This document shows, in pieces, positions 18,955 to 42,969 of a stretch of DNA of 55,717 bases (positions are counted from its first letter, which is position 1; the number at the start of each line of letters is the position of its first letter). Below the pieces are notes generated by a model, which was not told the origin of the DNA, ran no database searches, and saw only the letters and a program-made list of their open reading frames with translations. The stretch is from contig JANXBG010000010.1 in NCBI GenBank assembly GCA_025060715.1, positions 1-55,717 of the forward strand, given 5' to 3'. Position numbers and translations under genes: made by a program. Source of the stretch: Caldifarciminota bacterium. GTDB taxonomy: Bacteria; Hydrothermota; Tepidihabitantia; Tepidihabitantales; DTDR01.

Positions 18955-19304
18955 GGGTGGGGTGAAGCGGTCGCGGTAGGCTTTAAGCCTACTGAGGAAA
19001 CTCCGGACTCATGCCAACCCGGATACTTCGGGCAACCGAAGGCTATCTTGTCGTGAGACAAGATAGACGGAAAGTGTCACAGAAACGTAGACCGCCAACG
19101 GTCCCACTTCGTGTGGGATGCGGGCAAGGGTGAAACAGTGCGGTAAGAGCGCACTACCTTGTCTCGTAAGGGACAAGGTGGACAAACCCTATCCGGAGCA
19201 AGGTCAAATAGGGGCGAGAGGTTGGTTGGCCCTCGCTTGAGCCCCGGGTAGACCGCGTTAGATAAATGACCGCATAAACAGAATCCGGGTTATCACCCCA
19301 CCCC
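18955..19304 (+). ncRNA. rnpB: RNase P RNA, bacterial type A
   Basis: About 350 nt and GC-rich in an AT-rich setting. The ends pair as P1 (GGGTGGGGTGA with TCACCCCACCC). Conserved core elements are present: GAGGAAACTCCGGACTC near 18995 (CR-I), ACAGAAACGTAGACCGCC, GGCAAGGGTGAAACAGTGCGGTAAGAGCGCAC in the middle, AGGTCAAATAGGGG, and CAGAATCCGGGTTAT near the 3' end. It forms the catalytic RNA of the tRNA 5'-end processing enzyme, with a tRNA gene just downstream. Its own promoter starts transcription at the mature 5' end. Confidence 0.97.
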
Positions 19305-19342
19305 TCCCTTAATTTTTAATTCAAATAATACTCTTTAAGATA

Positions 19343-19725: not shown

Positions 19726-19799
19726 CGGGGCGTAGCGCAGTGGCTTAGCGCGCTTGGTTCGGGACCAAGAGGTCGCTGGTTCAAATCCAGTCGCCCCGA
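19726..19799 (+). tRNA. tRNA-Pro (anticodon CGG)
   Basis: 74 nt cloverleaf: acceptor CGGGGCG/CGCCCCG, D-arm GCGC...GCGC, anticodon stem CTTGG/CCAAG around loop TTCGGGA (anticodon CGG, reading CCG), T-arm GCTGG-TTCAAAT-CCAGT, discriminator A. The first base C is typical of tRNA-Pro. CCA is not encoded. GC content far exceeds the surroundings. hpt starts 13 nt downstream. Confidence 0.95.
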
Positions 19800-39284: not shown

Positions 39285-40421
39285 TTAACTATTAATGGAA
39301 AAATTATAGCCAAAAGATAATTTAAAATAAAAACCTTTGGCATTAAGCAAAAATCCTTTATAATATTCTTGAAATACTAAAAAATCAAATCTTTTTATAG
39401 TTATACCTAAACCTATTCCAATTTCTGAGGAAAAATTTTCTAAAGAAGTATTTTTACTACTTAGTAAATAAAGATTTAAAGAATTAATAATCCATAAAAA
39501 ATTAAAAGGTTGGTAATAGGATTCAAAAGAAAATTTAAAAAACTCATTTATTGCCCAAGATATACTGGGCTTAATTTTTAAATAATCTTTTATCTTATTT
39601 TCTAAAAATAAATTAATCTTCATCGGCAAAGGGTTATTAACAAATCCAATTGTTTCTTTTTCCTCTTTCATAAAAGAATAATAATTACCCGCATTTATTT
39701 TACTAAAATTTAAAGAATCAATTATTAAAATAATTTTACCTATTTTATTTTCTTTTTGCCAAAAAATCTTATTTCCTAAATTTTCCATTATGATTTTGAA
39801 CACAAGGTTCTCTTTTACTCTTTTACCAAAGCCAATATCAAAACCAAAACCCTGACCACCTAAACTTCTTTGATAATTTATTTCATTATACAGGTTAAGA
39901 AAATTTTGAGTAGTTAAAAGGGTAAGGTAGTTATTTTCGGTTTTAAAGTAATAATGTCCTTTTAAATAACTTATCCCTAAACCCAGTTGCCAATTTCTTT
40001 TAAAATAAAAATTAAAGGTATTTTTAAATTGGGAAAAGGTAAAAAGCTCTCCTTTACTTTCTTTTAATTGATAAATCTGATTTAACTTATTGCCAAAAAG
40101 AAGTAGTTCAAAAATTTCTTTTTCAATCTTACCCTTGGTCCTTAAATTAAAAGAGCCAGAGAAATTCCAAAAATTATAAGAAATAGATAAAAAAGATAAA
40201 AACGCCTCACCCGATAATTTTAAACCTTCTTTCGGAATAAGTTTTAAGAAAGTTTCCTTATCCTCTTTGTTTAAATATTTTCCATTATAATAATTATAAT
40301 CTTTGCCAGTAAAAGCATTATTATAAAGATTGAGATTAATACACAAAATTTGATAATAAGCCTTTTTATCGGAAGAAAAATCTATAAAACTTAAAGATGT
40401 TAAAATCAAAAAAACACTCAT
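39285..40421 (-). CDS. Predicted outer-membrane beta-barrel protein
   Basis: 378 residues. N-terminal hydrophobic segment (MSVFLILTSLSFI) with no clear cleavage site, then alternating polar/hydrophobic strands with aromatic girdles (GIGLGITIKRFDFLVFQEYYKGFLL, GFYFKLSFGYNFSINS), ending in a barrel-like strand. The overall look recalls PorV/PorQ or UPF0164-type barrels of FCB bacteria, but I cannot assign a family. It follows the lipoprotein gene by 3 nt, so the two probably work together at the outer membrane. Confidence 0.6.
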   Translation of the reverse strand: MSVFLILTSLSFIDFSSDKKAYYQILCINLNLYNNAFTGKDYNYYNGKYLNKEDKETFLKLIPKEGLKLSGEAFLSFLSISYNFWNFSGSFNLRTKGKIEKEIFELLLFGNKLNQIYQLKESKGELFTFSQFKNTFNFYFKRNWQLGLGISYLKGHYYFKTENNYLTLLTTQNFLNLYNEINYQRSLGGQGFGFDIGFGKRVKENLVFKIIMENLGNKIFWQKENKIGKIILIIDSLNFSKINAGNYYSFMKEEKETIGFVNNPLPMKINLFLENKIKDYLKIKPSISWAINEFFKFSFESYYQPFNFLWIINSLNLYLLSSKNTSLENFSSEIGIGLGITIKRFDFLVFQEYYKGFLLNAKGFYFKLSFGYNFSINS

Positions 40422-40424
40422 TAA

Positions 40425-42329
40425 TTATCTCTTAATTGACCTTACTATCTCTTTTGTCTTTACTTTTAATATCGCATAAGATTTAAAACTCAAAAAATCC
40501 TTTGATCTTAAAAAGACTGTATCACTTTCCGGAAGATTAATTTTTAACTGTGTTTTTAATTTTTCCTTTTTAAAAATTTCTAATTGATTTTCTTTTATCT
40601 CCAAAATTATTTCGCTTCTTTTTTCTTTTTCGCAACAACCCTTTTCGGAAACCACTCCGCTTACTAAACTGAAAGGAAGTATAATAGAATCCTCTTCAGA
40701 TTTTATAACCAATGAACCATCAAAACCGATAGGGAAATGATTAACTGCTTCAATAATCAACTCTCCACCTACTAAATTTTTATTAATTTCTTCTCCTTTT
40801 TCTTTACTTAAAAAGATTTCTTTTTCGTAAGCAATAAAGGTGTCTTTACTAAAGGAAAATTTCAAAGGTAATTCAAATGAGGCATTTAACAGAAAGAAGT
40901 CTTTTTCTTCAATTTTTCCTTGTCCATTAATTCTTCCGGAATAATTAAATTTTAAAATTTTGGGACCATTATTTATCAAATTGGTAGCATCAATTCTTTC
41001 ATTTACTCTGATTAAAGGTTCTCCATTTCTTAAAGGAAGATTAATTTCTCTATGAAGAGAACAAATTTCTCCGTTACGGTTAATACTCTTTCCATTTAAA
41101 AAGATAGTTATCGGGGCTTTTACATTGGAAATAATCTCTAAGAATATTTCTCCCTTTTCAAATTTTATTCCTTTGGGATTACCTAAAAAATTTATTATTA
41201 AAGAATCTTGGTTATTCAAAAAATAAAGCGGCGATAAGAAATTACCTTCAATTTTTTTAAATTTTAAATCTCTTATCTGACCATTAAAGGAAAAATAATC
41301 TTGCCTATTGACACTAAAGAAATTTTGAGAATCACTAATTTGGGCATTTATTTCTATTAACAAAAGGAATCCTTTATTATCTGGAAAATTTTGTCTTATA
41401 ATTTTCTCTCTTAAAGGGAGAGAAATTTTTTTATAACTATAAGCAAAAATATTAAAACTATCTTCATAATCTATTTCTTCTATTTTTAAAAAGATTAATA
41501 AAGGAAAGGAAAATCGATTAACAAAATTTAATTCCAAATAACCTTCCTTTATTTCGCCATAATATAAATCAAAATCAGAAAAATTTATATAATAATTGCA
41601 AGTATTATTTAAAAAAGTTTTTTTAAATTTTAATTTACCTTCCCTTAATTTGACATTAATAAATTTTAATATCAATTTTAAATAATCGTTTTTTCTCACG
41701 AATAAAGACTCCTCGGTGAAAATCTCATAGGTTAATAAAATATTAATTGGTGAAGAAATGAATATATTATTGATAGCACCGTAATGCTCCTTTTGAGAAT
41801 TGGGTTCTACATTTCCTAAATCAAAATCAACATTACCTAAATTAACCTTAAAATATTTAAAATTTATAGGTGAAGGGTTTTCAATTTTTAAAATTAAAAG
41901 GGCTTCTTCTATAAAACCGTAATGAAAATCATCTATACTTATCAGTTTTTCTAAATCTCTTGAGTAACGGGCCGGTGGTAAGATAATAAAACTATCAGGA
42001 AACAATATTCCTAAAATTTCTTCAACATTAATAATTATCTCACTAAAAAATGTATCACAAACTTTAAAATTGTTTAAATAATATACCGAATCAAATCTAT
42101 CAATATTAAAATTAATTTTTGTTATTGGTAAAATTGTGTCAAAATCAGTTTTATAAAAGAAATTTAAGGTTGAATCAGAATTAAAAATAAAATAATGAGT
42201 GTCTAATAAAGAAAAAAGGGTAACTTTTTTTTCTAATAAGGGAATTGTTATCTCTGTATCCCATTCCGGAAGTTTTGGTTTTTCTAAACAAAAGAAAAAG
42301 AAAATTACAAAAAATAAGAGTTTTTTCAA
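40425..42329 (-). CDS. Large predicted lipoprotein, beta-rich
   Basis: 634 residues. TTG start supported by AAAGGAGGTG upstream. A signal peptide MKKLLFFVIFFFFC ends in a cysteine that fits a lipobox, followed by LEKPKLPEWDTEITIPLLEKKVTL, an opening seen in secreted FCB-type proteins. The rest is beta-rich with repeated short strands (INFNIDRFDSVYYLNNF, ILKIENPSPINFKYF). No catalytic motif seen; function unknown. First gene of a two-gene unit with the barrel. Its upstream region is the structured block at 42364-42644, which would form a long leader if the weak promoter at 42676-42705 is used. Confidence 0.65.
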   Translation of the reverse strand: MKKLLFFVIFFFFCLEKPKLPEWDTEITIPLLEKKVTLFSLLDTHYFIFNSDSTLNFFYKTDFDTILPITKINFNIDRFDSVYYLNNFKVCDTFFSEIIINVEEILGILFPDSFIILPPARYSRDLEKLISIDDFHYGFIEEALLILKIENPSPINFKYFKVNLGNVDFDLGNVEPNSQKEHYGAINNIFISSPINILLTYEIFTEESLFVRKNDYLKLILKFINVKLREGKLKFKKTFLNNTCNYYINFSDFDLYYGEIKEGYLELNFVNRFSFPLLIFLKIEEIDYEDSFNIFAYSYKKISLPLREKIIRQNFPDNKGFLLLIEINAQISDSQNFFSVNRQDYFSFNGQIRDLKFKKIEGNFLSPLYFLNNQDSLIINFLGNPKGIKFEKGEIFLEIISNVKAPITIFLNGKSINRNGEICSLHREINLPLRNGEPLIRVNERIDATNLINNGPKILKFNYSGRINGQGKIEEKDFFLLNASFELPLKFSFSKDTFIAYEKEIFLSKEKGEEINKNLVGGELIIEAVNHFPIGFDGSLVIKSEEDSIILPFSLVSGVVSEKGCCEKEKRSEIILEIKENQLEIFKKEKLKTQLKINLPESDTVFLRSKDFLSFKSYAILKVKTKEIVRSIKR

Positions 42330-42363
42330 CCCACACCTCCTTTATTTTTAAGCCTTATAAATT

Positions 42364-42660
42364 AAAAAGGGCAACCGGTATACTGGGCCCGTTCATCTTG
42401 CCTCTAAATAATATTAAGAGGTGGCATCCTCTACTTTATTGAACGGTCGCTCAGTAATACCAGCGCCCTTTTTCATCCCTTCCTCCCCCAAATTTTACGG
42501 GGGCCTAAAAATGAGGACTGGGCTATGAACTCAAAAGGGAGGTTAATTTTAGACCCCCGAATATTATTGGGATGTAGTGCGTATCCTCTAGAAACCGAAT
42601 TTTATATCTTCCGCCCTTCCGAAATACTCGCACTACATCCCAATCAATGTGGTAAGGAGG
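42364..42660. ncRNA. GC-rich structured block, candidate leader RNA or small RNA (family not recognised)
   Basis: Much more GC-rich than its surroundings and full of complementary segments. Hairpin 1, 42364-42473: AAAAAGGGC/GCCCTTTTT at the base, then ACCGGTATACTG with CAGTAATACC, CCGTTCA with TGAACGG, and CCTCT/AGAGG at the tip. It has T-runs on both sides, so it could terminate transcription in either direction. Middle: GGGGGCCTAAAA (42499-42510) can pair with CCCCC at 42485-42489 or with TTTTAGACCCCC at 42547-42558, but not both. Hairpin 3: perfect 16-bp ATTGGGATGTAGTGCG (42566-42581) against 42629-42644. It could be the leader of the minus-strand lipoprotein gene or an independent RNA. 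No known riboswitch, SRP, 6S or tmRNA consensus recognised. Confidence 0.6.
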
Positions 42661-42666
42661 TGAAAA

Positions 42667-42759
42667 ATGCGAGTAATTTTATCTTTTTTCTTGCCCGATT
42701 TTCAAAGAACTCTTTTGTTTTCTCTTAACTTTAAATCAAAAACTATGCCAAAAAAATAA
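42667..42759 (+). CDS. Possible 30-residue peptide
   Basis: ATG 6 nt after a strong AAGGAGG, giving MRVILSFFLPDFQRTLLF and ending KTMPKK. It is too short for the track at this frame, and is hydrophobic then basic. It begins right after the third hairpin of the structured block, so it could be a leader peptide or a chance ORF. It overlaps the weak minus-strand promoter candidate. No family recognised. Confidence 0.25.
   Translation: MRVILSFFLPDFQRTLLFSLNFKSKTMPKK
42676..42705 (-). promoter_or_regulatory. Possible promoter for the lipoprotein operon
   Basis: Minus strand: TTGAAA (42700-42705), 18 nt, TAAAAT (42676-42681). It would start transcription near 42669 and produce a leader of about 340 nt through all three hairpins before the Shine-Dalgarno of the lipoprotein gene. 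The spacing is longer than elsewhere, so this is weak. Confidence 0.3.
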
Positions 42760-42969
42760 AAATAAAAAACCATAAAAACCTTAATTTTCAATGTTTTTAA
42801 AAAGCTTTTAATTATTTATTTAAAAAAACTTTCTATTAAAAATGCGACAAAATAAGCTTAAAATAAATAATGATCATTTAAATCATATAATTTCAATGAC
42901 TTACAAAAAATGTGACATTATTAATTTTATATTTTTTGTTTTATATTTTTTGTTTATTTATAAAATATA

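Follow-up and report, generated by a model that had tools for sequence, protein, structure and literature searches.

A GC-rich intergenic block in a 55,717-nt stretch of DNA from a Caldifarciminota bacterium (the window, meaning the whole stretch that was analysed) is the core of a predicted structured leader RNA read on the minus strand, here named X. Comparison among related genomes suggests that X is quite probably a dual-function leader, acting in cis on the lipoprotein operon that it precedes and in trans as an antisense RNA on co-regulated mRNAs.

Results and discussion

A structured block within a larger minus-strand unit

Positions 42364-42660 had been singled out in an original prediction for three foldable elements, all of which are present. 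The 110-nt hairpin spans 42364-42473 and is closed by the arms AAAAAGGGC and GCCCTTTTT. The G-rich segment has alternative partners, as GGGGG can pair either with its own CCCCC arm or with CCTCCCCC, a tract close by at about 42480-42489. The perfect 16-bp stem joins 42566-42581 to 42629-42644. Fold z values are -5.39 for the plus strand and -5.71 for the minus strand (about -5.5 overall), and none of 100 dinucleotide shuffles of either strand folded as well. Together with compensatory changes in the 110-nt hairpin (HP3), these values bear out the proposal that the block is a functional structured RNA. The congeners G001 and G002 retain the block at about 80% identity, flanked by the same genes. 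The promoter, boxA and synteny seen in comparison with related genomes are all on the minus strand, and this comparison fixes the RNA strand as minus.

The functional unit exceeds the block: it begins at a sigma-54 promoter at 42736-42751, preceded by activator sites that reach 42917, and ends at the lipoprotein ribosome-binding site (RBS) at about 42334. The original prediction had missed both this promoter unit, with its upstream activator sites (UAS) and boxA, and an antisense loop directed against trans-encoded mRNAs. The features, including the regulator gene considered below, are as follows.

42843-42917, minus strand: pair of TGTCRCA activator sites (TGTCACA ... TGTCGCA), about 68 bp apart, the probable UAS of the sigma-54 promoter
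42736-42751, minus strand: sigma-54 (-24/-12) promoter TTGGCATAGTTTTTGA, 100% conserved in three congeners, predicted start near 42725
42699-42710, minus strand: boxA antitermination-type element GTTCTTTGAAAA, found in 9/9 X loci
42655-42673, minus strand: 5' strand of the long-range helix P1, carrying an anti-Shine-Dalgarno (anti-SD) sequence, CTCGCATTTTTCACCTCCT; predicted from the fold, with compensatory changes in family f3
42566-42644, minus strand: HP1, the perfect 16-bp stem with a variable loop
42498-42559, minus strand: HP2, a C-rich/G-rich stem-loop whose large loop is the predicted antisense element
42512-42546, minus strand: HP2 loop UUAACCUCCCUUUUGAGUUCAUAGCCCAGUCCUCA, antisense over 23 nt to the SD of Y (contig C22) and over 22 nt to the SD and AUG of a GH123-like gene (contig C44)
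42471-42489, minus strand: purine-rich tract GGGGGAGGAAGGGATGAAA, which forms the 3' strand of P1 and could pair instead with the C-rich strands of HP2
42364-42473, minus strand: HP3, the 110-nt hairpin with terminator-like end GCCCTTTTT, supported by covariation and matched by covariance model R1
42334-42343, minus strand: lipoprotein Shine-Dalgarno (SD) sequence AAAGGAGGTG, about 20 nt after HP3
40425-42329, minus strand: lipoprotein gene downstream of X, 634 aa, no Pfam or NCBIfam match
39285-40421, minus strand: gene for a barrel-like outer-membrane protein, second in the operon, 378 aa, no Pfam or NCBIfam match
L032:5595-10880 (G000:C22): Ser/Thr kinase-AAA-TPR-GAF-sigma54 activator-Fis fusion, 1,761 aa

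Promoter, activator sites and boxA

The pattern TGTCRCA-N50-80-TGTCRCA precedes X in each of the three congeners and the micropeptide gene Y in two of them. A genome-wide search of three genomes for the paired sites returned X and Y and, besides these, only a CRISPR array and a CDS. Upstream of 18 X and Y promoters, 26 TGTCRCA sites were observed against 0.69 expected from composition; no exact site was found in the X and Y regions of G003, where just 67 nt upstream of X were covered. Consensus-like sigma-54 sites (for example CTGGCACAACCGGTGC and TTGGCACGGGTGATGC) occupy the matching position in six further genomes.

The boxA of X, GTTCTTTGAAAATCGGG, matches that of the 16S leader of the same genome, GCTCTTTGAAAATTGGG (L009, about 1450). 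The 1.5 kb following this 16S gene (L009; G000:C55) hold no obvious 23S gene, and the two may be unlinked. Elsewhere in the genome, a boxA-like GTTCTTTGAAAATTAGG occurs at one side of a short CRISPR array with the repeat GTCGCAATCCTTTTTTAATCAAGGTGAAC (G000 contig C5, about 41.3-41.8 kb; L043).

Architecture and covariation

The predicted RNA, which runs from near 42725 into the 634-aa lipoprotein gene, is about 395 nt long in the window's genome and about 670-890 nt in other families. P1 in family f3 begins a fixed 22-24 nt past boxA, its 3' strand lies 60-71 nt past the HP2 loop, and its pairs show compensatory changes. Across the genomes of families f2 and f3 the HP2 loop is near-invariant, as is an apical motif of HP3; in the predicted fold this loop is partly paired (mean unpaired probability 0.34).

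Covariation in homologues, the check proposed at the outset, favours HP3. In its basal helix, 7 of 16 pairs show a compensatory change and 93% of cells are paired. For a set of nine sequences from related genomes the covariation score is 0.344 against 0.166 +/- 0.035, the signal is destroyed by sliding the partner, and 0 of 500 shuffles reach it, a count that is not a probability because nine kindred sequences are a small set.

The expectation of a riboswitch-like or attenuator-like element held in part. X is a leader immediately before the lipoprotein SD, whose RBS lies within tens of nucleotides of the HP3 end, and it combines mutually exclusive pairings with a terminator-like hairpin, as predicted. 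HP3 is followed by a U-tract (a GCCC-T5 hairpin end) in the window's genus and G003 but not in family f3, which means that attenuation of the classic type is not conserved. The comparison yielded no sign of a ligand or of a riboswitch, and X matches no aptamer in Rfam.

Within the HP3 linker (window 42430-42489, minus strand) a strong SD-like GGGGGAGGAAGGG is followed by ATGAAAAAGGGC, a possible 20-codon sORF. The sense sORF of this linker, MKKGAG..., was set aside because a stop shortens the frame in G001. The apical sequence of HP3 was also considered as a further antisense seed and rejected, its matches being X itself and a 15-nt match inside a CDS.

Downstream operon and distribution

Given an RBS about 20 nt past HP3, the simplest view of X is that it leads the lipoprotein/barrel operon; the original prediction and the look of the 378-aa sequence suggest a barrel-like protein. 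Covariance model R1, covering HP2 and HP3, finds homologues in G003 (E 6e-9) and G016 (E 1e-5), and a 15-nt loop pattern locates X also in G004, G007, G017 and G019. X is thus carried by nine genomes in three families, that of the window and eight others of the same order. Outside the genus, each locus has boxA, a consensus-like sigma-54 site and then, directly 3', an orthologue of the lipoprotein with 22-26% identity (E 1e-12 to 2e-56). With an HP2 loop that hardly varies across families f2 and f3, X is more strongly conserved than the lipoprotein it precedes. X was not detected in G005, G006 or G010; a scan of named genomes gave no other match than G001's own record and one in Clostridia judged to be chance, and viral contigs gave none.

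Complementarity to translation starts

Searching the window's own genome with the block, by pattern searches and in fetched stretches, returned the block itself, one AT-rich 45-nt match judged to be chance, and three short matches, all of them translation starts of other genes and antisense to X. No repeat or mobile signature was seen, and a mobile or repeat origin, against which the original prediction had cautioned, was rejected. The first match, ATGAACTCAAAAGGGAGGTTAAT on C22, covers the SD of the 16-codon Y mRNA, which ends in a terminator-like hairpin, and is perfectly complementary to the HP2 loop over 23 nt. The second, TGAGGACTGGGCTATGAACTCA on C44, covers the SD and ATG of a 589-aa secreted GH123-domain protein and is perfectly complementary to the same loop over 22 nt. 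The third, AGGAGGTGAAAAATGCGAG on C5, lies at the start of a 1,468-aa secreted Kelch/CARDB protein and matches the P1 strand perfectly over 19 nt; it is a weak candidate site, noted in the window's genome. Complementarity scores for Y, C44 and C5 are 54, 55 and 49, whereas none of the other starts examined scored above 27.5. The Y site is kept in three of three congeners, and the GH123-like site is kept in G002, where its single change is G:U-compatible. The GH123-like gene was not found in G001, though the HP2 loop is kept there.

The z values of the X:Y complementarity are 16.6, 11.8 and 9.1 in the three congeners, 7.9 in G016 and 3.3 in G003. They derive from an ungapped complementarity score with shuffles, used in place of RNAduplex energies; the latter, taken alone, failed to discriminate and were dropped, since in GC-rich genomes X is so long that large loops let it pair with any sequence. 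From its X loop, the Y leader of G003 (the second family) was forecast before inspection to be CCCAAGAAGGAGGCTA, and CCCAAGAAAGGAGGCT was seen at the SD. The pairing comprises 7+8 bp with one bulge of 1 nt, the extra base because of which a one-substitution pattern search had missed it. The Y leader of G016, from the third lineage, matches by 17 bp another X hairpin, between promoter and boxA. Significant complementarity beyond the SD core was not found in G004, G007 or G019; sequence complementarity between X and Y is accordingly present in 5/8 genomes and absent in 3/8. For G017, the predicted Y leader would contain a sequence close to GAATCGCCAAACGGAGGAACC, which is the complement of the HP0 loop of its X.

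Because the HP2 loop is near-invariant in families f2 and f3 although G004, G007 and G019 lack an X:Y match, it must have another, older partner. This could perhaps be an RNA, a protein or, as a weak candidate, X's own purine-rich GGAAGGAGGG. Pairing of both loop types with 16S rRNA was near chance, and this partner was rejected.

The Y micropeptide and its putative regulator

Y lies directly 3' of the 1,761-aa regulator, which has Pkinase, AAA, TPR, GAF, sigma-54-activator and Fis domains. A separate sigma-54-like promoter, equipped with TGTCRCA sites, serves Y. The Y transcript is predicted to start at GAACUCAAAAGGGAGG, and the segment that matches X would be its 5' end. The regulator has full-length orthologues in G003, G004, G007, G016, G019 and G009, each with a sigma-54-like promoter and a Y-like gene behind it; no full-length orthologue was found in G005, G006 or G010, the same genomes in which X was not detected. 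From this adjacency and co-occurrence we infer that the regulator binds the TGTCRCA activator sites. In several relatives the regulator gene itself has a sigma-70-like promoter closely preceded by two TGTCGCA sites, an arrangement that suggests autoregulation.

The Y peptides are Pro-rich (MFVRFVPPPPLPVPPK, MDAPIVPILPPPRPAPPVK, MDGYPIPPKPGPLPDPPSQG), and most of the codon differences between the congeners are synonymous. The Y of G003 (L071, G003:C14) has a signal-peptide-like start and four near-identical PHPPKPVPP repeats, (V/A)DGIPHPPKPVPPTQ, looking like a multi-copy peptide precursor. Between the Y stop codon and the terminator, TCTCCGATAGATAG is invariant in three congeners (L013/L011/L015). 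Rfam models gave nothing relevant on the Y loci.

A model for X and its alternatives

The conserved structure, promoter, activator sites, boxA, operon linkage and complementarity described above suggest how X may operate. The kinase-fused sigma-54 activator probably binds the paired TGTCRCA sites and switches on transcription of X, together with its operon, and of Y. BoxA would let the polymerase traverse the long untranslated leader, which is predicted to fold as P1-HP1-HP2-HP3. In the window's genus, the HP2 loop would pair with the extreme 5' end and SD of Y or, alternatively, with the SD and AUG of the GH123-like protein, and such pairing should block ribosome loading and so repress translation of Y and of the secreted GH123-like protein. 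As the purine-rich strand of X can hide the HP2 loop, target pairing and the folding of X (termination at HP3 or read-through) may be coupled. The agent acting in trans might be terminated X or the whole mRNA, and target pairing might itself alter termination at HP3.

X could instead be purely a cis-acting riboswitch or attenuator of the lipoprotein-barrel operon, its antisense matches being by-products of sequence capture. The order-wide synteny with the lipoprotein would fit, as would the aptamer-like near-invariance, in families f2 and f3, of the HP2 loop and of the motif at the apex of HP3, the alternative pairings and the terminator-like HP3 of the window's genus and G003. We nevertheless regard this as unlikely: two perfect antisense matches both fall on translation starts and are conserved among congeners with G:U-compatible changes, the match to Y is made by a different hairpin in a third lineage, and neither a U-tract in f3 nor an Rfam aptamer match supports it. 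A plus-strand element, such as a terminator or the 5'UTR of rimP-nusA-infB, or a chance structure is very improbable. The divergent rimP and the folding of the plus strand are outweighed by a promoter, boxA and synteny that are all on the minus strand; plus-strand ORFs in the block were rejected, as their reading frame is not conserved, and covariation excludes a chance structure.

Two further readings concern the relation between X and Y. In a system resembling type I toxin-antitoxin pairs, Y would encode a toxic Pro-rich peptide akin to ribosome-binding proline-rich antimicrobial peptides, X would be the RNA antitoxin, and the lipoprotein and barrel would serve export or immunity. The antisense element does cover the SD of a micropeptide mRNA, the peptides MFVRFVPPPPLPVPPK and MDAPIVPILPPPRPAPPVK are Pro-rich, and the G003 precursor has its signal-peptide-like start and four PHPPKPVPP repeats. 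Known type I toxins, however, are mostly hydrophobic membrane peptides, X and Y are apparently co-induced by one regulator, and their pairing is absent in three genomes, all of which renders this reading rather improbable. The roles might also be reversed, with the 5' end of Y displacing the purine-rich strand, opening X and activating the lipoprotein operon. The prediction that Y begins with the X-matching segment, and the internal competitors of the HP2 loop, would accord with such a role; but the pairing covers Y's own SD, the Y ORF is conserved at the codon level and the GH123-like target would be left unexplained, and we consider the proposal quite improbable.

Relation to known RNAs

Covariance models of Rfam 15, run on the window and the other X loci as the original prediction had advised, place X above the gathering threshold nowhere; the best sub-threshold scores are those of SorX (22.8 vs 46.6) and L20_leader (20 vs 58.7). 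Judged on its sequence, X is a member of none of the RNA families compared. In the window, Rfam confirmed the genes of a class A RNase P RNA (18955-19307) and of a tRNA (19726-19799).

The Qrr RNAs of Vibrio are sigma-54-dependent trans-acting sRNAs that pair with translation starts. GlmY of enterobacteria is likewise a sigma-54-dependent sRNA (PMC6075780). X shares with them, as far as sequence can tell, structure and a -24/-12 promoter with upstream activator sites and, with Qrr, complementarity to translation starts. Unlike them, it leads into an operon, far exceeds them in length, bears a boxA, offers perfect pairings of 20-23 nt and has a kinase-fused activator as its likely regulator; Rfam shows no relation in sequence. 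The SreA riboswitch of Listeria is a 5'UTR that also acts in trans. A second such 5'UTR is Rli51 (PMC11394854). X resembles both as an mRNA leader with complementarity to other mRNAs, and riboswitches generally in its 5' leader position and conserved structured core, but differs from SreA and Rli51 in its sigma-54/boxA control, order-wide conservation and co-regulated micropeptide target.

BoxA elements occur in untranslated RNAs such as rRNA leaders (PMC4807359) and CRISPR leaders (PMC7862264). Like these, X is a long untranslated RNA with a boxA close to its 5' end, and this boxA matches that of the organism's rRNA; unlike them, X leads a protein operon under sigma-54. In the type I toxin-antitoxin systems IstR/TisB and SR6/YonT, an antisense RNA acts on a small-peptide mRNA (PMC8309996, PMC5848175). 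X is similarly complementary to a small-peptide mRNA, in five of eight genomes, but the Pro-rich Y peptide is no hydrophobic membrane toxin, and X is an operon leader that is apparently co-induced with Y.

Conclusions

More broadly, we tentatively propose an order-wide module, a reading that is plausible but somewhat doubtful, in which a kinase-fused sigma-54 activator would drive both a Pro-rich micropeptide, secreted or ribosome-active, and a boxA-protected leader. The leader would serve as the 5'UTR of an outer-membrane operon and as an antisense RNA on the micropeptide and secreted proteins, with the loop carried on different hairpins in different families. If the dual-function reading is true, X would represent a new family of structured RNAs, more strongly conserved than the protein encoded downstream. 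It would join signalling by Ser/Thr kinases, control by sigma-54, boxA-mediated antitermination across an untranslated leader and antisense repression in trans, four features that are usually studied separately. It would also supply concrete pairings of 20-23 nt and point to a family of Pro-rich micropeptides.
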